Of a stretch of DNA of 64,000 nucleotides, positions 48,670 to 62,670 are shown piece after piece. The notes beneath the pieces are model-generated. The model ran no database searches. It saw only the letters and a program-made list of their open reading frames with translations, and was not told the DNA's origin. Source of the DNA: Acidobacteriota bacterium (GTDB lineage Bacteria > Acidobacteriota > Thermoanaerobaculia > Multivoradales > J023); assembly GCA_029263395.1 (NCBI GenBank), contig JAJCXO010000128.1, positions 1 through 64,000 of the forward strand, written 5' to 3'. The position numbers were made by a program, and so were the translations under genes. How positions within the stretch are numbered: position 1 is the stretch's first letter; each line of letters begins with the position of its first letter.

Positions 48670-51600
48670 TCACCGGGCGGCTTTCTGGGCTGCGGGGTGG
48701 ATAAGGGTGATGTTCGGCCCCGGACCCACCGGATGTCGAGATTCGGCCCCATCCGGCCAGCGCACCCACAGCAATTTCGCCTGGCCGGTGCCTAGTCCAA
48801 AAAAACAGGTCGGCGACGACTGCGAAAGGTAGCCTGAACCGGCGTAAACTTCCGTCGTCTGGCGGTGGCCGTCGGACATTTCCAGGGTCACCCGCGCGCC
48901 CACCGCGACCGGGTTACCTACGAGACCCTTCAGGCGGACGGCCAAGGAGCTGTTGCCCGCGACGCCATGATTACCGAAGGCGGCCAGCGGTCCGTTGTTC
49001 TGAGTCAGCACAACGTCGGGCCAACCGTCGCGGTTGAGGTCGCCACCCGCCAGGCCCATGCCATCACCGGGCACCATCAGGCCTGATTCGGACGGGTCGG
49101 ATACCCTGAAATCGCCGCTTCCGTCCCCAAACAGCAGGAGCGAGACCCCGCCGTCCAGCAGGCCGGTCTCCGGCTCGCGGCTGAAGAAATTCTGGACCAC
49201 ATAGAGATCGGTGTGGCCATCGCCGTTGTAGTCGGACGCCACCATGCCGTACCCAGGCGAGGCCTGAGCCAGGCGCGGCAGCGGCCGCCAGTCGAAGCCA
49301 CCTTCGCCGTCGTTCATCAGGATCCCGCTGGCGAGCTCGACCGCCTCAAACGTCTGGGCCTGCCCGAGCGTGTCGTCCGGGTAGATATCGATCAGCTGGG
49401 CCGAAGCATAGTCGTGGTAAGTGGGAAAGCGCTCCTCGACGAAGGGCATCGCCAACGATGCACAGCTGCGACCCCGCACTGGCAACAGCCCTTCGGTGGT
49501 GCTACTGGCCTCGATCAACTCGGGTTCGCCGGAGCCGTCCATATCGCCGTAGTAGAGCCTGGTAGGCAGTTCCGGTGAGGCTGAGTACTTGCTGTTCAGG
49601 CCCAGGTTTCCCACCGCGTAGTCCATGGCGCCGTCACCGTTGAAGTCGCCGCCGGTGATGCTGTTCCACCAGCCCGTGCGCTCGGCCAGACCGGCTTGTT
49701 GGGTGTGGTCTGCGAAGGAGCCACCGAGGTTGGTGAAAAGACGTACCGGCCCCCATTCCAAGGTGACCAGCAAGTCGGGTTTACCGTCGCCGTCAGCGTC
49801 GCTGAACAAAGCCCCGGTGACCATGCCGACGTCAGCCAGGCCGGGGGCGATGGCTGCCGTGACATCGCTGAAGCGGCCGCCATCGTTGCGCAACAGGCGG
49901 CTGCGAGGCGCGGTTGGATAGCGCCCCGGAACCGCGCGCCCACCAACGAACAGGTCCAGGTCGCCGTCAGCGTCGAAGTCGGCCGCCGCGCTCGCGCCGC
50001 TGAAGCCATGGACCACCGGCAAGGCATCCGGAACATGGGAAAAAGTGGCGGATCCATCGTTGCGGTAGAGGCGATCGGCCTGGCGGGGATCGCCGCCAGG
50101 GTATTCGTTGCTGCCACTGCTGACAAAGAGGTCCAGGTCGCCGTCGCCGTCAGAGTCCAGCCACAGGGGTGCCATATCCTCGGATTCGGCATGCCCAGAC
50201 CAAGGGCCTGTTCGACGCTCGAAACCCGCACGGCCACGGAAGAGAAACAGCTCGCCCGACTGGCCGGCGGCACCGCCCACAAACAGGTCATCGAGACCGT
50301 CGCCGTCGGCATCACCCCATGCCAGCCCGGGGCCCAACTGGGACAATTGCAAGGGTAACAACTGTTGCAGGCTGTAGTCATCGAAGGGCCGTTCCTCGTG
50401 GCGCCACTCCAGCCCGAGCCGCTTGGTCACCAACAGGAAGAGCAACTCCTTGGGGTTGGGCAGGCGTTTGACCGTCGGCGGCCCCGGCTGCTCGTCGAGG
50501 GTGTAGAAACGGCCTGCAACCAGCTTGTCGAGTTGCTGCGTATGGCCCTCCGGCCACTCGACGGCGAGATCGAAGGATGTGTCTTCGCCCAGCCCAAAAT
50601 GGACCAACGGCTCCTCACTCGACATGAAGCCGCGGGTGGGCATCAAATGGCGTACCTGGGTGCCACGGCTCGAAGTGAGGCGGACCAGGGCGCCGAGTCC
50701 GTAGCGGTTGGTCTTGCCTCGCAGGCGGATCAGTACCCGGCCGCCGCTGCCGCTCTGGTTGCGATAGATGCCGGCCGGCTCACCCAGTCGGTTGACCACC
50801 AGGTCCAGGTCACCGTCACGGTCCAGATCGGCGTAGGCAGCGCCAAAGCTGATACCGTCGTGATTCAGCCCCCAGCTCGCCGAAACGTCCTCGAAGTGCA
50901 AGCCACCGAGGTTGCGGAACGCGAAATCGGGGGAGGGCGCCTGCGGGAGGGTCTTCATGTACTCCATCGCTGCCGCCTCGCCTTCTGTGTCCCAGACCTC
51001 GAACATCTTGATGCCGGTCAGGTCCAGGCTCATGTCGTCGCGCGAAGTGCCGTTGGTGGTGAACAGATCGAGCCGTCCGTCGTTGTCGAGGTCGCCGAAA
51101 CGCACCGACCAGGTCCAGTCCGTGGCGTCCAGACCGGCCATGGCGGAAACCTCTACATAACGCGCCAGACCGGTGGCGAGGAAAAGCGCGTTTTGCATTT
51201 TCTGGCGCGGCCATTCGGTGACGAGGAAGTCGCGGAAGGTGCTGATGTCGCCCATGTTCCGCTTGGATTTGTAGTGGCTGCTACCGGCCATATCAGCGAC
51301 GTAGAAGTCGAGCCGACCATCATTGTTGATGTCGCCGAAGTCCGAACCCATGGAGGTCCAGGTGGTGTGGGGCAACAGGTACTCGAGAATATTGGTAAAA
51401 GTGCCGTCGCCATTGTTGCGCCAGACCCGGTCCCGGGTGGTCAGGTCGTTGCCGACATAGATGTCGAGCCAGCCGTCGCGGTCAAAATCCATCCAGGCGG
51501 CGGATAGGCCCAATCCATAGTCGATCAGGCCGGCGGCCTCTGTGACGTCGCTGAAACTACCGTCGCCGTTGTTCTGGAACAGGCGGTCCCGTTGGCCGGC

Positions 51601-52368
51601 CAGCTCCCAGCCGCCACGGCCAAGATCGGCCCAGTCCTCGGGATTTTCGGCCACCAGGCGACCATCCTTTTCCATCGTCCGTACCGGATGAACCCGCATC
51701 TCGTCGATGGTCTTGACGGTGTCTGCAGGCACCACCAAATCGGCGATCTGGGCGCCCGGCACGCTCTGATGGAGCGCCCGATAGGTGAGCAGGTACATGT
51801 CCAAGTCGCCGTCCCGGTCGTAATCGGCGAAGTAGGCCATGATGCTGGCCGCCGCATGGGCAAGGCCGAACTGCTTGGCTTGTTCGGTGAAGGATCCGTC
51901 ACCCTGGTTGACGTAAAGCAAGTTCGGCGCTTCCGTATTGCACACATAGAGATCGAGATCGCCGTCACCGTCGATATCGACGAAGGTCGCACCGCGGCTC
52001 CAGGCCGCCCCGCCATCAACCCCGGCTTCTGCCGTGACATCTTCGAATCGCCAAAGGCTCGTCTGGCGGTACAGCTTGTTGGGGCTGTCGGTAGAAAGCA
52101 GGTAAACGTCGGCCAGGCCGTCGCCGTCGATGTCGCCGATCGCCACCCCTGCACCGGTATTGATGAACGGGATCTGATTTGGCCGCTTCAGCGTGCTGAC
52201 AAAGTTGATGCCGGTCTCACCCGGGGACAACTTCGCAAAAAGTGGGCTCGCACCAGGACCCGCAGCACGCAACGGCACCGACGACAACCCGGGTTGATCT
52301 TGAGCCCAGGCTCCGCCCGCCATACCAACACACAGCCATACCATCAGAATACGAACCTTCACTGTCAT
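48670..52368 (-). CDS. Exported FG-GAP/VCBS protein with two ASPIC-UnbV domains (CRTAC1 family)
   Basis: A 1,232-aa exported protein. Signal peptide ends at GGAWAQD. Many FG-GAP/VCBS calcium-binding blades occur, with motifs such as GDIDGDGLADVYLL, DIDGDGDLDLYVCN, DLDRDGDLDLVVNR and DADGDGKPDLLV. They are arranged as two halves, each closed by an ASPIC/UnbV domain: ~543-613 (LIRLRGKTNRYGLGALVRLT) and ~1146-1213 (LAVRLKGLVGNPVAVGARVT). Known relatives are secreted and surface-associated beta-propellers of unclear activity. AGGAG lies ten bases before ATG 52368. It diverges from a second CRTAC1-type gene. Confidence 0.9.
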   Translation of the reverse strand: MTVKVRILMVWLCVGMAGGAWAQDQPGLSSVPLRAAGPGASPLFAKLSPGETGINFVSTLKRPNQIPFINTGAGVAIGDIDGDGLADVYLLSTDSPNKLYRQTSLWRFEDVTAEAGVDGGAAWSRGATFVDIDGDGDLDLYVCNTEAPNLLYVNQGDGSFTEQAKQFGLAHAAASIMAYFADYDRDGDLDMYLLTYRALHQSVPGAQIADLVVPADTVKTIDEMRVHPVRTMEKDGRLVAENPEDWADLGRGGWELAGQRDRLFQNNGDGSFSDVTEAAGLIDYGLGLSAAWMDFDRDGWLDIYVGNDLTTRDRVWRNNGDGTFTNILEYLLPHTTWTSMGSDFGDINNDGRLDFYVADMAGSSHYKSKRNMGDISTFRDFLVTEWPRQKMQNALFLATGLARYVEVSAMAGLDATDWTWSVRFGDLDNDGRLDLFTTNGTSRDDMSLDLTGIKMFEVWDTEGEAAAMEYMKTLPQAPSPDFAFRNLGGLHFEDVSASWGLNHDGISFGAAYADLDRDGDLDLVVNRLGEPAGIYRNQSGSGGRVLIRLRGKTNRYGLGALVRLTSSRGTQVRHLMPTRGFMSSEEPLVHFGLGEDTSFDLAVEWPEGHTQQLDKLVAGRFYTLDEQPGPPTVKRLPNPKELLFLLVTKRLGLEWRHEERPFDDYSLQQLLPLQLSQLGPGLAWGDADGDGLDDLFVGGAAGQSGELFLFRGRAGFERRTGPWSGHAESEDMAPLWLDSDGDGDLDLFVSSGSNEYPGGDPRQADRLYRNDGSATFSHVPDALPVVHGFSGASAAADFDADGDLDLFVGGRAVPGRYPTAPRSRLLRNDGGRFSDVTAAIAPGLADVGMVTGALFSDADGDGKPDLLVTLEWGPVRLFTNLGGSFADHTQQAGLAERTGWWNSITGGDFNGDGAMDYAVGNLGLNSKYSASPELPTRLYYGDMDGSGEPELIEASSTTEGLLPVRGRSCASLAMPFVEERFPTYHDYASAQLIDIYPDDTLGQAQTFEAVELASGILMNDGEGGFDWRPLPRLAQASPGYGMVASDYNGDGHTDLYVVQNFFSREPETGLLDGGVSLLLFGDGSGDFRVSDPSESGLMVPGDGMGLAGGDLNRDGWPDVVLTQNNGPLAAFGNHGVAGNSSLAVRLKGLVGNPVAVGARVTLEMSDGHRQTTEVYAGSGYLSQSSPTCFFGLGTGQAKLLWVRWPDGAESRHPVGPGPNITLIHPAAQKAAR

Positions 52369-52563
52369 AGTTCATGGTCTCCTAGCAGGCTGAGGTGCGG
52401 GGCTGAGAGGGGGCAGGGGGTGAAAAGGCACGGTCGCCGGCCGTCTATCGTATACCGAGCGATAGGTGGTTGTTCCGGCCTGCGGAGTTAGACAGTAGAA
52501 GAGTGGTTGTCTAAGCTTGGCAACGTGTTGAACGGAAACAATGTGTTCAGCGTCTGCAACGCA

Positions 52564-54816
52564 ATGCGACTGCACAAGAGACGTGGGATGTTGAAGACGC
52601 TCGCCGCCATGTTGTTGGCATGCACGACCTCGGTGGTCGCCGATGAAGAGCGTCCACCCCCTCTATTGCAAGCAGACCTGTCACAACCAGACCCGTCGCG
52701 ACCCGGGCACCAAAAGATGCTGGCCATGCTGGAGGCGATCCGGCAGGCCAGCCCCAAAAACAATGTCTACGTCGGTGATGCCAACGCTCGGCAGTTGCGT
52801 CGCCAGGTAGCCCAGGCGGGTCACCTGGTACCTCAGGAGCAGGCCCAGCTGCGACTGGACCTGGGCGAGGCGGAGCTGCGGCTCGGGAAGGAGCGTGAGG
52901 CGATCAGCCAACTCCAACGCGCCCTCGCTTTGCTGCCCGCGGCAGATACCACGGACCAACCCACGGCGTTGGAGATTCGGTTCCGTCTCGGGGTTGCTTA
53001 CATGCGCCTCGGCGAAACCGAAAACTGCTCTGCGCACAAGTCGGCGGAGAGTTGCATCTTGCCTATCCGGGGGGCCGCAATTCACACCCAGCGCGAGGGT
53101 TCCAGCAAAGCGATCCAACACTTCTCTTACATTCTGCAGCACACTCAGGAAGAGTCTGCTGCTTACCAAAGATCTCAGTGGTTGCTCAACTTGGCTTCTA
53201 TGACCCTGGGCGAGTATCCAGACGGCGTGCCCGCCCGCTACCGCATCCCGGCCGACAACTTCCAATCCGACGAACCTTTCCCGCGTTTTGTCAACGTCGC
53301 CGCCAAGCTCGGTCTCGACACCTTTTCCCTGGCCGGCGGAGCCATCGCTGAGGATTTCGACGGTGATCTGGACCTCGACCTGGTGGTATCCAGCTCGGAT
53401 CCCGGCGAGCGCCTGCGATTCTTCCGCAACAATGGCGCCGGCGGGTTCGACGAGGATGGCGACGATCTGGCAGGACTCTTCGGCGGCTTGAACGTCGTCC
53501 ACGCCGACTACGACAACGATGGCGACGCGGACCTCTTCGTGCTGCGCGGGGGTTGGATGTTTCAGGCCGGCGAGCAGCCCAATTCGTTGCTGCAGAATCA
53601 GGGAGACGGCCGCTTTGTGGACGTCACGTTTGCCGCGGGTCTGGGCGAGGTCCATTACCCTACCCAGACCGCCGCCTGGGCCGACTACGACAACGACGGT
53701 GATTTGGACATCTATGTCGGCAATGAGTCCTATCCCGGCGTCCAGTTTCCCGGCCAACTGTTCCGTAACCGCGGTGACGGCACCTTCGAGGACGTTGCCC
53801 GCAGCGCCGGCGTGGCCCAGGTGGCAATGACCAAGGCCGTCGTCTGGGGCGACTACGACGGCGACCGCTACCCCGATCTCTACATCTCCAACTACGGCGG
53901 TCCCAACCGGCTGTACCGCAACAATCGCGACGGCACGTTTGAGGAGGTGGCGGCCACGCTTGGGGTGGACGGCCCTGCGGATAGCTTCCCCGCCTGGTTC
54001 TGGGATTACGACAACGACGGCCGTCTGGACCTCTTCGTGTCTTCCTACAAGTCATCAGCCTCCGCCATGGTTGCTGCCTACAGCGATCGCCTGCAGCCCG
54101 CCGACTCGCTGCCACATCTCTACCGCGGCAGCGGCAGCAGCAGCGGTAGCGGCGCCTTCACCCACGTGCACGCCAACCTGCGCCGCACCAGCGCGCCGAT
54201 GGGCTGCAACTTCGGTGACCTCGACGGCGACGGCTTCCTCGACTTTTACCTGGGGACTGGCTGGCCAGACTACGAGGCGCTGATGCCGAACCTGGTGTTC
54301 CGCAACCGCGCGGGAGTGGACTTTTCCGACGTCACCACCGCCGCCGGCCTGGGTCACCTGCAAAAGGGGCACGCCGTGGTTTTTGCCGACCTCGACAACG
54401 ATGGCGACCAGGACGTTTTCGAGCAGATGGGCGGCTTCTACCGCGGTGACCGCTTCTATGACGCCCTTTACGAGAACCCGGGCTTCGGCAACCACTACCT
54501 GACCGTGATCTTGACCGGGACCCACTCCAATCGCTCGGCCATCGGCGCCCGCGCCCGTCTGGTGGTTGGCAAGGGCAACGAGTCCCGGAGCCTTTACCGT
54601 CACGTCAACAGCGGTGCCACCTTCGGCGGCAATCCCCTACGTCGCTTTTTCGGTTTGGACAAGGCGGAGACCATCGAGCGCCTGGAAGTCTTCTGGCCGA
54701 CTACCGGCAAGACCCAGACCTTTTCCGACCTACCCCTGGACCGTACCCTTCGCATCACCGAGGGCCGCGAGGGCTACGAGCCAATCGTGCTGGAAAAGGT
54801 CACCCTGGGCAATTGA
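52564..54816 (+). CDS. Exported TPR/FG-GAP/ASPIC-UnbV protein (CRTAC1 family)
   Basis: About 750 aa. ATG at 52564 gives a basic N-region and hydrophobic core (MRLHKRRGMLKTLAAMLLAC then TTSVVADEE); a TTG at 52507 and an ATG at 52588 are less likely alternatives. Residues ~80-150 contain TPR-like repeats (AQLRLDLGEAELRLGKEREA, LEIRFRLGVAYMRLGETENC). FG-GAP blades (~260-620) carry DFDGDLDLDLVVSS, DYDNDGDADLFVLR and DLDNDGDQDVFEQ. A C-terminal ASPIC/UnbV domain (~650-730) has VILTGTHSNRSAIGARARLV. The small TPR part before the propeller distinguishes it from its divergent neighbour. Confidence 0.88.
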   Translation: MRLHKRRGMLKTLAAMLLACTTSVVADEERPPPLLQADLSQPDPSRPGHQKMLAMLEAIRQASPKNNVYVGDANARQLRRQVAQAGHLVPQEQAQLRLDLGEAELRLGKEREAISQLQRALALLPAADTTDQPTALEIRFRLGVAYMRLGETENCSAHKSAESCILPIRGAAIHTQREGSSKAIQHFSYILQHTQEESAAYQRSQWLLNLASMTLGEYPDGVPARYRIPADNFQSDEPFPRFVNVAAKLGLDTFSLAGGAIAEDFDGDLDLDLVVSSSDPGERLRFFRNNGAGGFDEDGDDLAGLFGGLNVVHADYDNDGDADLFVLRGGWMFQAGEQPNSLLQNQGDGRFVDVTFAAGLGEVHYPTQTAAWADYDNDGDLDIYVGNESYPGVQFPGQLFRNRGDGTFEDVARSAGVAQVAMTKAVVWGDYDGDRYPDLYISNYGGPNRLYRNNRDGTFEEVAATLGVDGPADSFPAWFWDYDNDGRLDLFVSSYKSSASAMVAAYSDRLQPADSLPHLYRGSGSSSGSGAFTHVHANLRRTSAPMGCNFGDLDGDGFLDFYLGTGWPDYEALMPNLVFRNRAGVDFSDVTTAAGLGHLQKGHAVVFADLDNDGDQDVFEQMGGFYRGDRFYDALYENPGFGNHYLTVILTGTHSNRSAIGARARLVVGKGNESRSLYRHVNSGATFGGNPLRRFFGLDKAETIERLEVFWPTTGKTQTFSDLPLDRTLRITEGREGYEPIVLEKVTLGN

Positions 54817-54973: not shown

Positions 54974-55014
54974 GTCAGTTCACGATCTATGGTCTGGGTC
55001 GATCGTGAACTGAC
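54974..55014 (+). promoter_or_regulatory. Perfect 14-bp inverted repeat before the Ubl-DUF4132 cassette
   Basis: gtcagttcacgatc (54974-54987) and gatcgtgaactgac (55001-55014) are exact complements over 13 bases. The right arm ends one base before the gggag ribosome site of the next gene. It is either an operator for a dimeric regulator or an RNA stem that can sequester the translation start. The stretch 54817-54973 has no gene. Confidence 0.7.
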
Positions 55015-55025
55015 CGGGAGAAGAT

Positions 55026-55424
55026 ATGACAACAACTCTCACCCTGTGCGACGAAACCACTGGTGGCGAGCGCCGGGCTGTGATCACCCTCGATCTGCCA
55101 GAACCCACCCTTACGGTTCGGGAATTGATTCGCTCCCGGGTCTATGAAGAGGTTCGACGGTTCAACCAATCAGCGCCATCAGAGCCTTGGAAGGGACTTG
55201 TCCAACCAACGGCCTCGGAACGAGAGCTCAACGGGAAGCATGCAAAAAGAAGCAAGCGGATCGATTGGCACACGCAGGTCGAGCTTGCCCTCGATGCTTT
55301 CGAGTCGAATGGCTTTATCGTGCTGGTCGATGATCGGCAAGTGGCGTCGCTCGACGAGGAAGTTGCTGTTCAGTCGGACACGCAAGTGAGCTTCATCAAG
55401 TTGGTTCCGCTCGTCGGCGGTTGA
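55026..55424 (+). CDS. MoaD/ThiS/ubiquitin-like beta-grasp protein with C-terminal Gly-Gly
   Basis: A 132-aa soluble protein; ATG at 55026 has GGGAG upstream. The N-terminal strand-helix reads TTLTLCDETTGGERRAVITL then PEPTLTVRELIRSRVYEEVR. A charged insertion occupies ~45-85. The C-terminus GFIVLVDDRQVASLDEEVAV then QSDTQVSFIKLVPLVGG copies the MoaD/ThiS end (variable strand, L-D-x-x-V, D-x-V-x-F, hydrophobic-P-x-x-GG). A free diglycine tail is the site of adenylation in sulphur carriers and ubiquitin-like modifiers. No E1-like enzyme, JAB protease or molybdopterin gene is nearby. It ends just before the DUF4132 gene. Family assignment is inferred from pattern; function is unknown. Confidence 0.72.
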   Translation: MTTTLTLCDETTGGERRAVITLDLPEPTLTVRELIRSRVYEEVRRFNQSAPSEPWKGLVQPTASERELNGKHAKRSKRIDWHTQVELALDAFESNGFIVLVDDRQVASLDEEVAVQSDTQVSFIKLVPLVGG

Positions 55425-55438
55425 GGTCTGGGAGCGGA

Positions 55439-57919
55439 ATGCCGGCCTCATCAACTGGCCGCCCGAAAAGCAGCTCTCAGCAGGAGGCCAGCTCGCACGC
55501 TGGGCCGACTATGAGCAAGGAACTCAGGGCGTTGATCGAGGAGATGCTGGAAGGCAAAACTCGACTCCACAGCTATAACGCGATCTTGAAGAAAAGCCGC
55601 GCCGACCAAGCTGCAATTGCCCTCGAAGCTTTCGAATTGGCGGCTGATCCGTGGGACTTCGACAAGCGATATCCACAACAGAACAACTTCTGGTTTCGCC
55701 AAGCCCTCTTTACCCTCGGCAGCCAATTGCTTCGCCGCAAGCTAAACTGGACCTCCGAGCAACTGAACCGGTTGGTCACGTTGGCGACAGACTTGAAGAT
55801 GCCCACCACCGGTGTGGTTCGCTCACTCGAACTCTTTGAGCGAGAGGGCGATGGCCGACAAGAGCTTCCCCCAGCAATTGAGGACTTGGTGCGTGCACTC
55901 CGTCAAACCAACTACCCAACTCAGAGCACATGGCGACTTGTTGAGCGACTCGAGGTGATCCTCGAGCGTCGGCGGGCGACAGATGGTCGACGATCGCTGC
56001 AAAGCCTGGTTCACGGGCAGGATCTCTGGTCTGCCACCCTGCTGGAGGCGATCACACCCTCGAAGAGCTTTGACCCATGGCGCAACCTGATCGAGCACTG
56101 CACCAAGGCTCGGTCCGCGAGTCCGAGCAAGCGATGGCAGCGGCGCTCAACCGAGTTGGTCTCGGCGATCGGCACGGTGTCTTTTGGTGACACTGTCGGG
56201 CGGACTTTATCGGCAGTGGGACTAGAGAACCCGAGCTCCGCTCACGCCCTCGACGCAACGCTCCTCGACGACCGCGATACGGATCTGCTTCGTGGGCTTA
56301 TCTGGTCTACCCTGTTGAGCCCAGGCGACGACATCATCCCCGTCCTCGGCCAGACGGCCGACCTATGTTTTTGCAAAATCAGAGATCACGGCCCGCGCAA
56401 TATCAAGATCGGCAACGCCTGCTTGACTGCGCTCAGTCTTCGCGACGAATTGAACGCGGTGGGCGAGCTCAGCCGCTTGAGAGCTCGAGCCAAGCACCCT
56501 TCGACACGGCAGCAGCTCGACAAGGCCCTCGAGCGCGCCGCCGAGCGCTTGGGTATGGACCGTGACGACCTCGAGGAGTTGGCTGTCCCCTCGTTTGGCC
56601 TCCAAGAGGTCGGGAGGCAGAGGCATCTAGTCGACGTCTTCACCGCGGAGATTCTGGTTGAGGCTGGGGGAGATGTTGTCCTGCGTTGGATTCTAGGCAA
56701 CGGCAAAGTCCAGAAGTCTGTGCCCAAGATCGTCCGTGAGAACCATGCTGAGCCTCTCAAGACGCTTCGCAAGTCCATACGCGATATCCGTAAGGCACGG
56801 CAGGCGCTGATCGCGCGGCTTGAACAACTCTATCTAAGGCCACGAGTATGGGCGATATCTGACTGGCATGAGCGATATGCGGAACATCCTCTGATGGGAA
56901 CTCTCGCCCGACGGCTGATTTGGAGAGCCGGCAATACGGACGGAAGCGATCAGACTCTCATCTTCTTCAGTGACGGTCGCTGGCGGGGTGAGGACGGCCA
57001 GCAAGTGGATCTCGAGGCGACTCGGCAGGTGGCACTTTGGCACCCGATCGAGAGTCCGCCTGAAATAGTTCACAGGTGGCGCCAAATTTTGCACCAACAT
57101 GGTGTGATCCAACCCTTCAAACAAACTCACCGTGAGATCTACATTCTCACCGACGCCGAGCGCCAGACGGGGACGTACACGAACCGCTTTGCAGCACACA
57201 TCTTGCGTCAGCATCAGTTCGCGGCAATAGCCCAAGCTCGCGGCTGGCAATACCACTTGATGGGCGCTTTCGATTCACACAACTCCCCGACCCTGAAACT
57301 TCCCCAACTCGACCTTAGGGTTGAGCTCTGGCTCGAGACGGGTGAAGACGAGGGCACGACCGAAATGGGGATTTATCACTGTGTGGCGACCGATTGCGTG
57401 CGCTTCGTTCGTCCTTCAGGTGAAGCACTGCCGCTCGAATCCCTTCCAGAACTAACCTTCTCCGAAGTGATGCGCGATGTTGATCTCTTTGTAGGTGTCA
57501 CGAGTATTGGCAACGATCCGAATTGGATCGATCACACAGATGCGCCCCATCGAGCTTACTGGCAGGACTACGCTTTCGGAGAATTGGGAACCATGGCGCA
57601 AAACCGGCGGCAGGTGCTCGAACGCGTGGTCCAGCGTCTGAAGATTGCCAAAAAATGTTCGTTCAGCGAGCGTTTTCTGATCGTGCAGGGGCAGCTGCGC
57701 ACCTACAAAATTCATCTCGGAAGTGGCAATATCCTGATGTCCCCGAACGACGCCTATCTTTGTATCGTCACCGGGGTTGTGCCTCGTCGCAGCAGTGCCC
57801 AACTTATTCTGCCTTTCGAGGGCGATAGCGTTGCCAGAACGATACTGAGCAAGGCATTCTTGCTGGCTGATGATCACAAGATCAAAGACCCGTCGATCAC
57901 CAGTCAGTTTCGCTCGTAG
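55439..57919 (+). CDS. DUF4132-family protein (MolR-like C-terminus)
   Basis: About 826 aa, soluble, no signal peptide. ATG at 55439 has GGAG upstream; a TTG at 55421 overlaps the preceding stop and an ATG at 55511 begins the conserved-looking MSKELRALIEEMLEGKTRLH. The N-terminal ~440 residues are helical-repeat-like (LEVILERRRATDGRRSLQSL). The DUF4132 region starts near 465 with PRVWAISDWHERYAEHPLMG and TLARRLIWRAGN. A C-terminal DUF7737-type end includes HLGSGNILMSPNDAYLCIV (~760). Proteins of this family, including E. coli MolR, have no established biochemical role. It is translated directly after the Gly-Gly protein, implying a shared function. Confidence 0.85.
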   Translation: MPASSTGRPKSSSQQEASSHAGPTMSKELRALIEEMLEGKTRLHSYNAILKKSRADQAAIALEAFELAADPWDFDKRYPQQNNFWFRQALFTLGSQLLRRKLNWTSEQLNRLVTLATDLKMPTTGVVRSLELFEREGDGRQELPPAIEDLVRALRQTNYPTQSTWRLVERLEVILERRRATDGRRSLQSLVHGQDLWSATLLEAITPSKSFDPWRNLIEHCTKARSASPSKRWQRRSTELVSAIGTVSFGDTVGRTLSAVGLENPSSAHALDATLLDDRDTDLLRGLIWSTLLSPGDDIIPVLGQTADLCFCKIRDHGPRNIKIGNACLTALSLRDELNAVGELSRLRARAKHPSTRQQLDKALERAAERLGMDRDDLEELAVPSFGLQEVGRQRHLVDVFTAEILVEAGGDVVLRWILGNGKVQKSVPKIVRENHAEPLKTLRKSIRDIRKARQALIARLEQLYLRPRVWAISDWHERYAEHPLMGTLARRLIWRAGNTDGSDQTLIFFSDGRWRGEDGQQVDLEATRQVALWHPIESPPEIVHRWRQILHQHGVIQPFKQTHREIYILTDAERQTGTYTNRFAAHILRQHQFAAIAQARGWQYHLMGAFDSHNSPTLKLPQLDLRVELWLETGEDEGTTEMGIYHCVATDCVRFVRPSGEALPLESLPELTFSEVMRDVDLFVGVTSIGNDPNWIDHTDAPHRAYWQDYAFGELGTMAQNRRQVLERVVQRLKIAKKCSFSERFLIVQGQLRTYKIHLGSGNILMSPNDAYLCIVTGVVPRRSSAQLILPFEGDSVARTILSKAFLLADDHKIKDPSITSQFRS

Positions 57920-57979: not shown

Positions 57980-60346
57980 CTATCGACCGCTGGGCAGCCA
58001 GGTCACAAAGGTCCGGGGGGATCCATCCGAGACGTAGGTGTAGGTGCCTCCTGGACGCATCGGTACTCGCCGACCGGTGGTTTGGTCGAACAGTCGCAAC
58101 CGTCGGACGATCGATCTGGGGCCATCCCAAGACAGGGTCACTTCCTCCACCTCCGACGACGCCCGCACCTCGAAGATCCAGCGTTCGCGGCGAGGGTGAC
58201 GTCTCAACCGATGGAAGTCGGTCGAATAGTCGCCCGCCTGATCACCCCATGTGGGGTGCGGAAACACCACCGTGAGAAAGGGTGACGCAAACGGCGCAAG
58301 CTCTTTCAGATCGTGGAGATCTGGACCCGTTCGACTCGTCGGCAGCTGCCCGTAGAGATTTCCATCGTCGCGTAACCCGTCCGCCTCGGCGATCAGCCGG
58401 ACAAACCACGGTTCGGAGCCAGGCCTCGCCTTCTCTAGTAGCGGGGGTTGCCATTGAGCTTGCCGCGCCTGAGCGATGGGCGCAAAACTCGAGCTGCCAC
58501 AACTCGAGGACGCCCTTGCCGGGATGCGTAACGCAATACCTGACTTGAACGCCTTGACCCACATCGCGTCGAACTCCGACAACGTGCCTTCGGCGCCGGG
58601 AGTGCTGCCATCGAATGGTGAGTACGCCGAGCCATTCCATTGGGTCATGGTCCGTGACATCACACAGCTAGCGTCAGCCGGCACCATGTCGCAGGCTCGC
58701 ATCGAACCGACTACCGGATCAGCCTGGTCCAGGGTCAACACCGAAGCACCGTCGACGACCCGAACATCAGCCCAGCAGACGTCGAAGCCGAAGGGGTGGC
58801 CGACGAGATTCGAGAGGCCGGCCGGGTCGGCAACCAAGGCGACCTCGGTCACCGTTGGCGACAGCGAACTGATCGCCACCGTCTCGCCCGCATCAGCGGT
58901 TTTGATCCAATACCCAACACCCATTTCGAGGGCGCTGCCGAGGGTCAAGGCGGTGTAGGCGCCAGCGGCCTCGTCGCGCTCGTAAACGATCCAATCGACA
59001 CCGTAGGTGCCGGTCATGTCGTCGCCAAATACGTCAGCCACGGTGTTGGCCGCGCCGGGATCGCAAGGTAAGGAGACCATCTTCCACTGCCCGGCGGTCA
59101 GGGCCACGCTGGCGGAACACGGGCTCTGGAAACGCTGGGCGAAAACTCCGGACAGATCGCCATCCTGCCCGATGGTTCCGGGCCTGTCACTGATCCAGGT
59201 GGCCAGGAAGTTGCCGGCATCGTCCATGGCAACCGCCGAAAAAGCCTGCCGGCCGGTGGTGTAGGTATTGGCTTGGAATTCACTACCCACCGCCGTGTCC
59301 GAATTATCGAGGAGCTGGCCAAAAGTCCCGGAGCGGTCACCGTCCTGGCCATTCAAGCTGCCCCAGACCACCACCATATTGCCATTCCCTGAACGATCGA
59401 TATGAGGGACCGACTGGCTGCCGGTGGTGTAGGTGTTGATTTGGAATTCGCCGCCGTCGAAGGTGCCATCATTCTCGAAACGTTGGCCGAAAATGCCGTC
59501 ACCATCCCCGTCCTGGTCATAGCTGCGCCAGGCGACGACAAACTCTCCGTCGAGATCGTAGATCGCTTCGGCATTGCGCTGGGAACTCGCGGTAGTGGTG
59601 TTGACAGAGAACTCGCTACCGGCTGCGGTCCCCGAGCTGGTGAACCGTTGGCCGTCGACTTCCGAAAATCCAGTGTTCCACACCACCACAAATTCGCCCG
59701 ACTCGGCCATCGCGACGTTGGGATAAATCTGTAAGCCGGCGGTGACGGTATTAGCTTGGAATTCGCCGCCCACCGGGTTGGCGCTGGCGTCGAACCGTTG
59801 GCCGAAGACACCCCAGGAATTGCCATCCTGGGTGTAGCTATTCCACGCCACCACAAAATCACCGCCCTGAGTCATGGCGATGTCGGGCTGCATCTGGGTG
59901 CTGGTGGTGTAGCTATTGAGGGTGAATTCGCCGCCGACCATGGCTCCCGAGCTCGAGAAGCGCTGGCCAACGATGTCACCGGTGCTCCAGACGACAATAA
60001 AGTTGCCGTCGCCATCCATCGCCACGTCGGGATAGGACTGCGAGCCGACGGTGGTGGTGTTGACCTGGAACTCGCCGCCGACCGTGGCGCCGCTGCTGTC
60101 GTAACGCTGGGCGAAGATCCCGTCCGAAGACCCGTCCTGGATCGAACTGCTCCAAGCAACCAGGAAGTCACCACGGCCACTCGCCGCCACCGCAACACGC
60201 CATTGGTTGTTGGTGGTGTACGTATTGACCTGAAACTCGCTACCTGTTGGCGTCTGCGCCTGAGCAGGCATCGCCCAACCGACCGTAAACGCCAGGGACA
60301 GCGCCAGAGCCAGAGCAAAAAAGGTGTGCGTCTCTTCGTATTTCAT
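57980..60346 (-). CDS. Exported protein with seven propeller-type repeats
   Basis: A 788-aa exported protein. ATG at 60346 follows GAGGAAGG; signal peptide ends at AMPAQAQ. Seven repeats of ~48-57 residues fill residues ~30-420, each with G(S/G)EFxxNxYTT, P(D/N)VAM, G(N/D)FxVxW and (F/V)xQRF(D/E). Seven copies fit a seven-bladed beta-propeller. After CSASVALTAGQWKMVSLPCD comes a second domain with DWIVYERDEAAGAYTALTLG and GVGYWIKTADAGETV, typical of exported Acidobacteriota proteins. The C-terminal ~100 residues (FEVRASSEVEEVTLSWDGPR) form an Ig-like end. The ligand is unknown. Confidence 0.8.
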   Translation of the reverse strand: MKYEETHTFFALALALSLAFTVGWAMPAQAQTPTGSEFQVNTYTTNNQWRVAVAASGRGDFLVAWSSSIQDGSSDGIFAQRYDSSGATVGGEFQVNTTTVGSQSYPDVAMDGDGNFIVVWSTGDIVGQRFSSSGAMVGGEFTLNSYTTSTQMQPDIAMTQGGDFVVAWNSYTQDGNSWGVFGQRFDASANPVGGEFQANTVTAGLQIYPNVAMAESGEFVVVWNTGFSEVDGQRFTSSGTAAGSEFSVNTTTASSQRNAEAIYDLDGEFVVAWRSYDQDGDGDGIFGQRFENDGTFDGGEFQINTYTTGSQSVPHIDRSGNGNMVVVWGSLNGQDGDRSGTFGQLLDNSDTAVGSEFQANTYTTGRQAFSAVAMDDAGNFLATWISDRPGTIGQDGDLSGVFAQRFQSPCSASVALTAGQWKMVSLPCDPGAANTVADVFGDDMTGTYGVDWIVYERDEAAGAYTALTLGSALEMGVGYWIKTADAGETVAISSLSPTVTEVALVADPAGLSNLVGHPFGFDVCWADVRVVDGASVLTLDQADPVVGSMRACDMVPADASCVMSRTMTQWNGSAYSPFDGSTPGAEGTLSEFDAMWVKAFKSGIALRIPARASSSCGSSSFAPIAQARQAQWQPPLLEKARPGSEPWFVRLIAEADGLRDDGNLYGQLPTSRTGPDLHDLKELAPFASPFLTVVFPHPTWGDQAGDYSTDFHRLRRHPRRERWIFEVRASSEVEEVTLSWDGPRSIVRRLRLFDQTTGRRVPMRPGGTYTYVSDGSPRTFVTWLPSGR

Positions 60347-60484
60347 ATCATGCCTTCCTCGTTGGAATGCCATCAAAAAAGCGGCTCGATTTCCATTTTA
60401 TACTCTGAAGTGTCCCGCTCTTGAGCACGGCACCTTCTCCCCCGTCGCCAAAATCACTGGCTTGGTCCCCTGTCTACCGAACCC

Positions 60485-60513
60485 ATCGGCGACCCAGCAC
60501 CGGGGTCGCCGAT
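60485..60513. terminator. Strong 11-bp hairpin between the TVP38 and propeller genes
   Basis: atcggcgaccc (60485-60495) and gggtcgccgat (60503-60513) are perfect complements around seven bases. It lies 120 bases beyond the TVP38 stop and 139 bases before the propeller-gene start, so it may end one transcript or regulate the other. No T-run. Confidence 0.4.
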
Positions 60514-60632
60514 CCACCGCTGGCAGGACCTACCACTCGCGACAGTGGGGCATCACTCAAAATGAAGCTTGGTAGAGTCGCCGAGGCTGTCTTTCCGAGC
60601 ACCTGATTCGTGCGAGCTTGCGTCAGTGGCGA

Positions 60633-61367
60633 TCAAGTTCGAGGCCGCACCGACCTCGACGACCTCGACGCCCGCAACTGACGGTAGCGACCGAGACGAT
60701 TGCGTTGCTGCTTCCACCACGGAATGCCGATCAGCAAGTTCAAGACCGTGAAACATGCCAGGTAGGCGGCGCCAGTGACCAGCCGATGGCCTTCACCAAC
60801 CAGCAACTCGGCGATGAAGTAAGTTTGGATCGCGGTAGCCGGGATCAACCCGACCATCGACGCCCCCAGGAACGACACAGCCGGCACCCCGGCCAGCGCC
60901 GAACCAAAGTTGACGACCGAAAACGGCAGCGGCAAGAAACGGGTCTGGACGATCGGCCAGAAGCCGGAACGCTCGAACGACCGCGCCATCCGACGCACCC
61001 GCTTGCCGGCCAATGCCTCGAGCGCATCGTGCCCCAGTAGCCGTCCCACCAGAAAGCTCGCCGCCGCTCCCAGAAACAGCCCGGTCAGGTTGTAGAGCGA
61101 ACCGACCACCGGGCCAAATAAAGCGCCGCCAATCAGCAGCGGTGACGGCGGCAACGCCACCACGGACACCATCACATACAGCCCGATCAACACCAGTGGC
61201 CCCCACCACATAGCCCGCACCTTCGCCATTAGTCCCTTGATGCCCTCTTCGGTGAGAACTTCCCCCACCGGCGCCCATTGCACCAAGAGCCCACCGCAAA
61301 CCAAGAGCAGCAAAAAGGCGGCGAACCGCAGCAAAACCGGGCGTGGCAGAGCGCGGATCGATTTCAT
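60633..61367 (-). CDS. TVP38/TMEM64-family inner-membrane protein
   Basis: A 244-aa polytopic membrane protein of the DedA/VTT superfamily, whose members act in lipid scrambling or membrane homeostasis. Helices at ~12-35 (VLLRFAAFLLLLVCGGLLVQ), ~55-75 (WGPLVLIGLYVMVSVVALPP) and later. The conserved VTT core is GGALFGPVVGSLYNLTGLFL with GAAASFLVGRLLG, then the re-entrant FWPIVQTRFLPLPFSVVNFG. Both reentrant-loop motifs look intact. The C-terminus is basic (LGRYRQLRASRSSRSVRP). It follows the RTX gene by 121 bp on the same strand but a terminator-like hairpin lies between. Confidence 0.9.
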   Translation of the reverse strand: MKSIRALPRPVLLRFAAFLLLLVCGGLLVQWAPVGEVLTEEGIKGLMAKVRAMWWGPLVLIGLYVMVSVVALPPSPLLIGGALFGPVVGSLYNLTGLFLGAAASFLVGRLLGHDALEALAGKRVRRMARSFERSGFWPIVQTRFLPLPFSVVNFGSALAGVPAVSFLGASMVGLIPATAIQTYFIAELLVGEGHRLVTGAAYLACFTVLNLLIGIPWWKQQRNRLGRYRQLRASRSSRSVRPRT

Positions 61368-61440
61368 CGTCCGCGGATCCTACTCGATCGCCGAGACGGG
61401 CGCCGTCCGATCACCAATCGACAGCTGACCACAAGAGAAT

Positions 61441-61467
61441 GGCGGAGGCCTGGAAACAGCCCCCGCC
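61441..61467 (-). terminator. Hairpin terminator after the RTX-type gene
   Basis: ggcggaggc and gcccccgcc pair with one mismatch around a 9-base loop, 22 bases past the RTX stop. The leftward strand continues attctcttg, a weakly T-rich tail. Confidence 0.5.
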
Positions 61468-61488
61468 CAAGAAATCTGAACGTTGTGC

Positions 61489-62370
61489 TTAAACCGGGAT
61501 CAAGCCTTCGATGTTGAAGCTGGCCTCGCAGGTGGTGGCGCCACCAACGGTCCCTTCCTGATCGAAGGCGTTGCCGCCGTCGCAGACGTCTCCGTTGCCG
61601 CTGTCGCCAAACAGGATGTCTTCGCCGTCGTTGCCACGCAGATCGTCGTTGCCGCTGTCGCCGTCGAGGGCATCGTTTCCGGTATCGCCGAACAACCGAT
61701 CGTTACCGGAGCCGCCGCGAATCTTGTCGTCGCCGCGACCGCCAGCAAGCTCTTCATCGCTATCGGCTCCGCCGTCGATGAAGTCATCTCCGTCACCGCC
61801 ACGGATGGTGTCTCGGCCAGCCCCGCCCCAAATCTCATCGTTGCCGCCAGTTCCGTTGATGATGTCGTTGCCATTACCACCGTCGATGGTGTCGGCATCG
61901 CCGAGTTCGGGGAAGAACGAATCACCGGAGATAAGGTCGTTACCCTCGCCACCGAGGATGTTGTCACGGCCGTCACCGCCGTAGACCGTGTCCGACCCGT
62001 CGCCAGCGTGGATGTGGTCAGTCCCCGAGTCACCGTAGATGGTATCTCGGCCACCCTCTCCAAAGAGAAAATCGTCGCCCTGGCCACCGGAAATCCGGTC
62101 GGCACCTGCCCGGCCACAGATGATGTCGTCGCCGCCGAGGCCACGGATATCGTCGTCGCCATTGGTGCCGAGCATCACGTCCGGCCCCGCGGTGCCGTTG
62201 CACTGAACGGCTGGAGCACAGACGATGGTCGGCTTGTAGCCACCACACCGGTCGTCGTCGTCACCACCGGGGGGAAGGATGTCGCCTGCGTAACTCGGAG
62301 TCAGGCTGGCAAGACTGAGGGCAGCGGTCAAGATCAAGGCGCGATACGGACGGATGATTTCGGTACACAT
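61489..62370 (-). CDS. Exported RTX-type (hemolysin-like) calcium-binding repeat protein
   Basis: A 293-aa protein. ATG at 62370 has GGAG eight bases upstream; signal peptide ends at PSYAGD. From ~55 to ~275 it is a near-continuous array of GGxGxDxUx nonapeptides (GLGGDDIICGRAGADRISGG, GGEGNDLISGD, GGNGNDIINGTGGNDEIWGG), forming a calcium-filled parallel beta-roll. The last ~20 residues (TTCEASFNIEGLIPV) follow a Cys-containing segment. A cleavable signal peptide argues against the type I route typical of RTX toxins. The long frame on the opposite strand is a periodicity shadow. It diverges from the sigma-factor operon. Confidence 0.92.
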   Translation of the reverse strand: MCTEIIRPYRALILTAALSLASLTPSYAGDILPPGGDDDDRCGGYKPTIVCAPAVQCNGTAGPDVMLGTNGDDDIRGLGGDDIICGRAGADRISGGQGDDFLFGEGGRDTIYGDSGTDHIHAGDGSDTVYGGDGRDNILGGEGNDLISGDSFFPELGDADTIDGGNGNDIINGTGGNDEIWGGAGRDTIRGGDGDDFIDGGADSDEELAGGRGDDKIRGGSGNDRLFGDTGNDALDGDSGNDDLRGNDGEDILFGDSGNGDVCDGGNAFDQEGTVGGATTCEASFNIEGLIPV

Positions 62371-62670
62371 GATGGAGTCTCCTGATTCGAAACGTTGTTG
62401 AGGCAAATCTTCGTCGATGAGGTGACGCCGCGGGGCAACTTCGTCGGATGTCGATTGGTTGGGTCCCATGACCGTCGCTCTCGGCCGTACAGCACGAAGG
62501 GTGGCGGCAGATTCCCTCAAAATCGGATGAAACTTTTTTCTAGACGAGGGCTGGAGTCGTCCCGTAGTTGGAACAGAAGCCCAAAGGATTCAACCGCTTA
62601 CCTGTGTTATCTTGATTCGTAAGAAAGCTCCTGCCAGCTCGAAATCTTCGACCCATCGTCAACTTTTCCA

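Follow-up and report, generated by a model that had tools for sequence, protein, structure and literature searches.

A predicted beta-grasp protein with a Gly-Gly tail and its DUF4132-DUF7737 partner: probably an unrecognized ubiquitin-like stress system

Layout of the two-gene cassette

The window, meaning the whole 64,000-nucleotide stretch that we analyzed, carries a two-gene cassette on its + strand. An earlier note on this DNA had described a 132-aa protein with a terminal Gly-Gly encoded directly before a DUF4132 gene, and we found both open reading frames (ORFs) in the window, overlapping or abutting. The small gene starts with ATG, stops with TGA, and encodes a protein with the C terminus QVSFIKLVPLVGG (ORF list and translation); codon reading places GGC GGT TGA at 55416-55424. 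The partner has three candidate starts: TTG 55421, which overlaps the TGA of the small gene, ATG 55439, and ATG 55511. The features are as follows.

54974..55014, no strand: perfect 14-bp inverted repeat with a 13-bp spacer, shortly upstream of the small gene's start codon (sequence)
55026..55424, + strand: small ubiquitin-like gene, 132 aa, predicted MoaD/URM1-like beta-grasp fold (ORF list, homologues, AlphaFold model, Foldseek, profile comparison)
55173..55265, + strand: charged insertion at the helix 1/helix 2 junction, residues about 50-80 (alignment, low pLDDT, absence in compact homologues)
55416..55421, + strand: Gly131-Gly132 codons, immediately 5' of the stop (sequence; GG-stop in homologues)
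55421..57919, + strand: partner gene, DUF4132-DUF7737, 832 aa from TTG 55421 (ORF list, Pfam, predicted model)
55517..56590, + strand: partner N-terminal helical HEAT-like solenoid, residues about 33-390 (model secondary structure; weak Foldseek matches)
56702..57247, + strand: DUF4132 domain, PF13569 (Pfam)
57596..57907, + strand: DUF7737 domain, PF24879, whose presence tracks the ubiquitin-like gene (Pfam, genome searches)
57761..57763, + strand: Cys781 codon in the motif YLCIV, candidate acceptor cysteine (conservation in partners)

The inverted repeat is present as a single copy in the window's genome and is possibly an operator or an mRNA hairpin. We found no RDRM-like (DdrO-type) operator near the window cassette. 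The G+C content of the cassette is somewhat below that of its flanks.

The small protein family and its predicted fold

Full-length homologues of the small protein, about 39-53% identical, adjoin DUF4132 genes at loci from many phyla, and an exact GG-stop C terminus is kept in 75 of the 78 distinct homologues in the first set collected. The pairing is therefore not due to chance. The GG class has the tail consensus F[LIV][KR]L[VT][PA]L[VA]GG. The free terminal GG is thus a conserved feature, but not a universal one: a divergent subclass of four sequences ends in GRxW instead. This subclass is a case of what the earlier note had listed as counting against its proposal, namely homologues lacking GG at the C terminus. 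The charged insertion that the earlier note had pointed out is also real. It carries the family motif GLVQPxxxE..LNG in the alignment and has a pLDDT of 63 to 75 in the AlphaFold model. Compact, 100-aa homologues (L163-L168) lack it, and it is absent at about four separate positions of the partner tree, where GG is retained.

Domain searches with the small protein gave no significant Pfam match and nothing in NCBIfam, the ThiS/MoaD Pfam model matched 0 of 27 family members, and a sequence search of PDB chains returned none at an E value of 10. The viral contigs and phages that we searched yielded no homologue. Two weak genome matches (L005 and L006) were set aside as chance, having no DUF4132 gene in the neighboring ORF lists. 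A small ORF upstream of the Acetobacter DUF4132-DUF7737 gene is unlike the family in sequence.

The AlphaFold model of the small protein (pLDDT, 75.8) has the beta-beta-alpha-beta-beta order of a beta-grasp plus an extra helix. MoaD (5MPO and 6JBZ), URM1, and ubiquitin folds led its Foldseek list, with E values of only 0.02 to 0.06. When the insertion was kept, a first hhalign comparison with MoaD/ThiS did not score above shuffles. In a second comparison, the insertion was stripped and divergent members were added; the profile then scored 23.7 against MoaD plus ThiS, compared with a shuffle maximum of 15.0 (0 of 100 shuffles reached it), and it still beat shuffles with the tail removed. A published fold prediction for the Deinococcus radiodurans homologue DR_A0165, made independently, matches 5MPO, SAMP1 (3PO0), and 1WGK (PMC9650054). 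Taken together, these predictions give moderate support to a MoaD/URM1-like beta-grasp fold; the earlier note had proposed a ubiquitin/MoaD-like one.

The partner protein and its genomic setting

The window partner matches DUF4132 (1.2e-47, 162.5 bits) and DUF7737 (5.2e-38, 129.6 bits; cut-off, 27 bits) in Pfam, which detected no WGR domain in it, and it has no recognizable biosynthetic domain. Foldseek matches to its model were mainly helical solenoids and were weak, none below 1e-3.

Genomes carrying the pair belong to Acidobacteriota, Actinomycetota, Planctomycetota, Armatimonadota, Calditrichota, Myxococcota, Pseudomonadota, Deinococcota, and SAR324; it spans at least eight bacterial phyla. 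The same upstream protein recurs in other genomes, a point that the earlier note had proposed to check, but its link to DUF4132 in general did not stand: the pairing is specific to the DUF7737-bearing subfamily. WGR-type DUF4132 proteins (MolR/YehI type; WGR is present at locus L068) share DUF4132 with the window partner but, unlike it, carry WGR, lack DUF7737, and have no ubiquitin-like neighbor. Among 297 Acidobacteriota genomes, the small gene and the DUF7737-bearing partner each occur in 2, the same two genomes. Among 151 Micromonosporaceae genomes, 62 have both genes, and a single gene was found in 4 and 9; 67 of the 75 ubiquitin-like (Ubl) genes there are adjacent to the partner, and about a third of the DUF7737 matches have no adjacent Ubl gene. 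The cassette is accessory and patchily distributed and has apparently moved from one phylum to another. A congener retains remnants of the partner.

At least two of the four GRxW-tailed proteins also adjoin the DUF4132-DUF7737 partner; GG chemistry is therefore not essential to pairing. The tail type covaries with partner residues, P775 and C781 among them. The Cys781 equivalent is Cys in all 40 GG-linked partners and Ala in both GRxW-linked partners. In two genomes (G531 and G538), Cys781 is kept and no Ubl was detected.

An all-against-all comparison of neighbors at the surveyed loci revealed no recurrent third gene and no linked E1, E2, or JAB. The earlier note had seen no sulfur-carrier, molybdopterin, or thiamine gene nearby, and none recurs beside the pair at these loci; neither tRNA-thiolation genes nor defense genes were seen to recur there, and PADLOC gave no match for the cassette. 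LexA-type boxes upstream of homologues are at most slightly above background and not clearly enriched. Housekeeping E1 (ThiF-family) genes are present in 11 of the 11 carrier genomes tested, none linked to the pair, and JAB went undetected in 1 of 12. The window's own genome does hold the E1-like and JAB genes that the earlier note had suggested looking for, but none is linked to the cassette: one cluster encodes JAB, CysO-like, E1, and CysM-like proteins, its E1 having an N-terminal rhodanese-like stretch, and a third E1-like gene (L223) likewise shows no link in the ORF listing.

The Deinococcus homologue, proposed function, and alternatives

In D. radiodurans, the small protein corresponds to DR_A0165 (SEP068184; profile conditional E value, 3e-17), which ends in LTALAGG and lies 2 bp from DRA0166, a DUF4132-DUF7737 partner. 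DRA0166 has 1,626 aa with an added DUF5724 region, and the operon has an RDRM, a DNA damage operator, at -82; the window cassette differs in both respects. Just upstream lie trxC and two genes of the YeeE/YedE family, whose proteins are thiosulfate transporters. This sulfur neighborhood is not kept in other Deinococcus species or other phyla.

Previous work showed that the drA0165-drA0166 operon is induced by MMC via IrrE/DdrO (PMC8533742) and that DR_A0165 is induced by gamma radiation and H2O2 (PMC9650054). The DR_A0165 deletion is viable and more resistant to H2O2, with no toxicity of the remaining DRA0166 reported there. DR_A0165 was pulled down with Trx1, indicating thioredoxin binding, and 157 coimmunoprecipitation partners were listed, such lists being partly unspecific; it was called Deinococcus specific and MoaD-like in predicted structure (PMC9650054). 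The earlier view that the pairing is undescribed thus needs correction, since this operon was already known to be stress induced. The Gly-Gly end, the partner's linkage or role, and the spread across phyla are not mentioned in the available parts of either report (PMC8533742, PMC9650054).

We concluded that the pair is probably an unrecognized ubiquitin-like stress system. The most likely reading, which we hold tentatively, is a two-gene stress cassette in which a URM1-like modifier or carrier is served by the DUF4132-DUF7737 protein as its dedicated receptor. It builds on the observed pairing, GG conservation, DUF7737 specificity, and concordance of tail and Cys781 among the sequences compared, together with the predicted fold; stress regulation and phenotype come from the Deinococcus reports of others, and partner contact, E1 activation, covalent transfer, and a role for Cys781 are steps that we infer. 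A housekeeping MoeB/MoeZ-type E1 would adenylate, and probably thiocarboxylate, the C-terminal Gly-Gly. The activated tail would then be used by, or on, the co-encoded protein, a helical solenoid with an alpha/beta C-terminal part that may act as a scaffold for transfer or as a dedicated receptor. This would alter how the cell handles oxidative or DNA damage stress, much as Urm1 links the activation of sulfur with the modification of proteins during oxidative stress; a connection of Urm1 conjugation with oxidative stress and with thioredoxin has been reported (PMC7016264). The earlier suggestion of a ubiquitin-like conjugation or carrier system therefore agrees with the fold, the GG, and the pairing, but conjugation and the partner's role are still presumptive. 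We found no report of a conjugate in the literature. More speculatively, and in our view improbably, Cys781 might take the activated tail as a thioester or persulfide. DUF4132-DUF7737 proteins would then be an unrecognized ubiquitin-like transfer enzyme family, E2/E3-like in role and unrelated in sequence, in the DNA damage/oxidative stress response, and lineages losing the cysteine would have switched to GRxW.

A close rival, and a serious possibility, is that the beta-grasp protein binds the DUF4132-DUF7737 protein noncovalently, as an obligate subunit or inhibitor, with its tail docked in a partner pocket, GG and GRxW being two docking tails and no E1 chemistry being involved. Many bacterial two-gene pairs work as a protein plus a noncovalent subunit or regulator. 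The strict operon of overlapping or abutting genes with no linked activating enzyme is consistent with this, as are the GRxW subclass, which retains pairing with its own conserved tail, and the covariation of partner residues, including P775 and C781, with the tail, as expected of a pocket. Against it, intact partner-linked GG-class homologues keep GG exactly at the free terminus while most other residues vary, a hallmark of carriers that depend on an E1; the P-L-V-G-G tail resembles P-V-x-G-G of MoaD; and many coimmunoprecipitation partners, partly unspecific as such lists are, have been reported for DR_A0165 (PMC9650054).

We consider it unlikely that the small protein is solely a sulfur carrier with a C-terminal thiocarboxylate, as in MoaD, ThiS, CysO, and TtuB, from which the partner builds or thiolates a small molecule or RNA. 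The fold and tail are nearest MoaD/URM1, trxC and the YeeE/YedE genes adjoin the D. radiodurans pair, and the window's genome has E1 genes, one of them, in the JAB/CysO-like cluster, with a rhodanese-like stretch; but that sulfur neighborhood is not conserved, the partner shows no biosynthetic domain, and the distribution is patchy and accessory. A toxin-antitoxin or antiphage defense pair is very unlikely. Patchiness, apparent interphylum transfer, lower G+C, and the partner remnants would fit such a pair, but PADLOC, the phage and viral searches, and the neighborhoods gave nothing for it, and the DR_A0165 deletion alone is viable, more H2O2 resistant, and without reported DRA0166 toxicity (PMC9650054, available part).

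Comparison with known systems places the favored reading, a modifier or carrier with a dedicated receptor, among several relatives. DR_A0165/DRA0166 belongs to the same family by profile, with the terminal GG, the adjacent partner, and a predicted MoaD-like structure (PMC9650054). URM1, SAMP, and TtuB, dual sulfur carriers and protein modifiers, likewise have a beta-grasp and a free C-terminal GG, but the window family differs in its insertion of 30 residues, in pairing with one large dedicated protein, and in being accessory. MoaD of molybdopterin synthase also has a P-x-x-G-G tail and works beside one partner protein; the window partner, in contrast, is not MoaE, and molybdopterin genes are not recurrent nearby. 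Bacterial ubiquitin-like operons come with E1/E2 genes of their own and, in many cases, a JAB gene (PMC1779556, PMC10097602). Tail-based covalent transfer, as in the E1-E2-JAB types and CBASS Cap2, is conceivable for the window pair too, but pairs of its type lack linked E1, E2, or JAB at the surveyed loci.

If this reading is true, a widespread minimal two-gene type without its own activating enzyme joins the bacterial ubiquitin-like systems. DUF4132-DUF7737 proteins, whose biochemistry is so far undescribed, would for the first time have a specific partner, along with a candidate residue, and a published "genus-specific" Deinococcus stress peptide would be recast as a member of a Gly-Gly-tailed family that spans at least eight phyla. 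For a direct test of the idea, D. radiodurans offers genetic tractability, a knockout phenotype already on record, and a JAMM protease.

The window cassette and its spread

The cassette comprises a gene for a small Gly-Gly-tailed protein and, directly behind it, a gene for a DUF4132-DUF7737 protein, its partner.

54974-55014: perfect inverted repeat, 14-bp arms around a 13-bp spacer, directly 5' of the small gene's ribosome-binding region
55026-55424, + strand: small protein gene, 132 aa, C-terminus KLVPLVGG, stop TGA
TTG 55421 (overlapping the small gene's stop codon), ATG 55439 or ATG 55511, + strand: possible partner starts
ORF ending 57919, + strand: partner, with DUF4132 (1.2e-47) and DUF7737 (5.2e-38)

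As in the window, only a few bases separate the small gene's stop from the partner's start in homologous loci. The two proteins are therefore probably co-translated, in line with the earlier note, which had the small protein translated directly before its partner. The inverted repeat, present once in this genome, may serve as an operator or form an mRNA hairpin. Large repeat proteins lie on both sides of the cassette (48670-54816 and 57980-62520); by eye, the first resembles the FG-GAP/ASPIC-UnbV type, and 61489-62520 resembles RTX-type calcium repeats.

We searched 149 genomes of the class and found three further full-length small-protein homologues, every one adjoining a DUF4132 gene. When species genomes were scanned with a profile, 31 loci matched well (L013-L043); they come from Armatimonadota, Calditrichota, Planctomycetota, Actinomycetota, Acidobacteriota, Myxococcota, SAR324, and Pseudomonadota. 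The earlier note had proposed surveying other genomes for the pair, and we found a partner-profile match within all 31 loci. The match is 2.7 kb off and on the opposite strand in L043, in pieces in L037, and extends past the contig end in L042; gene order is inverted in L015, and L016 (8397-13580) has one small gene followed by two tandem DUF4132-DUF7737 type genes. More copies lie on Novosphingobium, Nonomuraea, and Deinococcus replicons in a plasmid collection. The small protein of L037 (2096-2455, a Rubrobacter MAG) lacks the residues immediately before the tail and runs straight into KLVPLVGG; the adjacent partner gene is broken, and the gap is either a deletion or an assembly error.

The earlier note paired the small protein with a DUF4132 protein. 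We found the partner to be SPECIFICALLY the DUF7737 type. Of 148 genomes of the class, 10 carry DUF4132, and the copies in G026, G091, G142, and G141 have no ubiquitin-like neighbor; in each, the partner-profile match ends ahead of the DUF7737 region (the G026 copy has WGR and lacks DUF7737). In a set of 297 Acidobacteriota genomes, the two that carry DUF7737 are also the two that carry the small protein. Among 151 Micromonosporaceae genomes, 66 have the small protein, 71 have DUF7737, and 62 have both (Fisher p 2e-27, nominal because genome relatedness stays in the test). There, 67/75 small genes have a DUF7737 match no more than 6 kb away, with spacing and strand almost always alike, and 33/100 DUF7737 matches lack an adjacent small gene, many being second copies with the pair elsewhere in the genome.

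Three Micromonosporaceae homologues (L183, L184, and L188) are orphans, the 6 kb around them being free of DUF7737 matches, and L183 has a long Pro/Ser-rich insertion. Genomes G023 (the window's genus) and G025 (its family) hold DUF4132-DUF7737 gene remnants, pieces with parts missing (L074 and L073, respectively); we found no small gene, and the cassette has apparently decayed in these relatives.

Fold and tail of the small protein

The AlphaFold model of the small protein, built from 27 sequences (mean pLDDT 75.8), has strands at 3-11 and 16-24, helices at 31-48 and 81-93, strands at 97-101, 112-114, and 120-125, and a loose tail at 129-132. The top 16 Foldseek matches either had the ubiquitin fold themselves or were complexes with such a protein in them; they included MoaD (5MPO and 6JBZ) and URM1 (1WGK), with E values of 0.02 to 0.06 and probabilities up to 0.99 for the best; staphylococcal superantigen-like proteins, also with a beta-grasp, came next. 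As long as the charged mid-protein insertion was kept, profile comparison with MoaD plus ThiS sequences taken from the same genomes was negative. With the insertion stripped (74 diverse rows), the profile scored 23.7 and the best shuffle 15.0 (0/100 shuffles reached 23.7), although the HH-suite probability was just 29%; the profile still beat all shuffles after removal of the last 3 or 8 residues. Against MoaD alone, 8/100 shuffles reached the local score, and ThiS alone did no better. An independent structure prediction for the Deinococcus homologue DR_A0165, published in PMC9650054, pointed to MoaD, URM1, and SAMP structures. The beta-grasp proposed in the earlier note is thus likely, of a MoaD/URM1-like kind. 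In the partner model (pLDDT 81), the N-terminal half is helical and HEAT-like and the C-terminal half is alpha/beta; Foldseek gave no confident PDB match.

The free C-terminal Gly-Gly was conserved in 75 of the 78 distinct homologues first collected, with the consensus F[LIV][KR]L[VT][PA]L[VA]GG; the exceptions were two broken genes (L200 and L202) and the orphan L184, which ends in PPAG. Unlike the tail, the middle region is free to vary. Compact homologues of about 100 aa without the insertion (L163-L168) sit, by inspection, at about four separate places on the partner tree, which suggests repeated loss of the insertion with the tail retained.

The tail is not universal, however: four divergent homologues, from Bacteroides finegoldii and three genomes of G154's phylum, end in ML[SAC]GRxW. 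The two with a readable partner C-terminus both adjoin a DUF4132-DUF7737 protein. The Bacteroides partner additionally carries DUF5724, as does the Deinococcus partner, yet the Deinococcus tail is Gly-Gly. We found that the cysteine of the DUF7737 motif YLCIV (Cys781) is present in 40/40 distinct Gly-Gly-linked partners and is Ala in both GRxW partners; it is Phe in a well-aligned Acetobacter DUF7737 with no ubiquitin-like neighbor. Three more non-Cys proteins (L179-L181) are too divergent for secure alignment, and G531 and G538 retain the Cys with no small protein detected. We hypothesize that tail type tracks Cys versus non-Cys, a contrast noticed after many columns were inspected and resting on two or three lineages.

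The Deinococcus pair and possible roles

The Deinococcus radiodurans homologue DRA0165 (L205, 3805-4209; 134 aa, C-terminus LTALAGG) lies 2 bp upstream of DRA0166, a DUF5724-DUF4132-DUF7737 protein; we assigned these names by gene order (downstream of trxC), partner domain, and matching RDRM, the DdrO-type damage operator. PMC8533742 assigns drA0165-drA0166 to the DdrO/IrrE radiation-desiccation regulon and shows induction of DRA0166 by mitomycin C. PMC9650054 reports that SEP068184 (DR_A0165) rises after gamma irradiation and H2O2, that its deletion increases H2O2 resistance, and that Trx1 was pulled down with it, with no RDRM and no conservation beyond Deinococcus. We found the RDRM GGTTATGCTATTTACATAAC at -82 of drA0165 (L205 3723-3742), which agrees with PMC8533742 against PMC9650054; D. 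psychrotolerans and D. sp. D7000 share its core. We found no RDRM near the window cassette and no clear LexA-box enrichment in other homologues, so damage control is shown for Deinococcus only.

The earlier note's view that the pairing was undescribed needs narrowing, as both the Deinococcus operon and the prediction of a MoaD-like fold had already been published. The cross-phylum family, Gly-Gly tail, DUF7737 specificity, GRxW subclass, and candidate cysteine appear to be new. In the openly searchable literature, we found no mention of DUF5724 or DUF7737 and few mentions of DUF4132.

The earlier note suggested a search for E1-like and JAB proteins, enzymes able in principle to act on the tail. 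We found E1-like genes in 11/11 carrier genomes and JAB in 11/12 (not detected in G057). In the window's genome, contig C94 (3431-6359, L224) has JAB, CysO-like carrier, E1-like, and CysM-like (cysteine-synthase-like) genes; the E1 has an N-terminal rhodanese-like stretch (rhodanese and CysM were read by eye). This cluster is probably the genome's housekeeping sulfur-carrier system. The surveyed loci show no recurring third gene next to the pair. If the tail is activated, a housekeeping E1 must do it. That the small protein is itself a sulfur carrier is unlikely, and a defense or toxin pair is less probable still. A close second to our preferred reading, and quite possible, is that the small protein is a non-covalent subunit docking in the partner by its tail; the main argument for this is that the pairing persists in the GRxW subclass.

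We tentatively favor a URM1-like carrier or modifier, for which the DUF4132-DUF7737 protein would be the dedicated receptor or transfer scaffold. We infer that the small protein would contact its partner, be activated by an E1, and be transferred covalently, with Cys781 as the candidate residue. The pair would work in stress handling.
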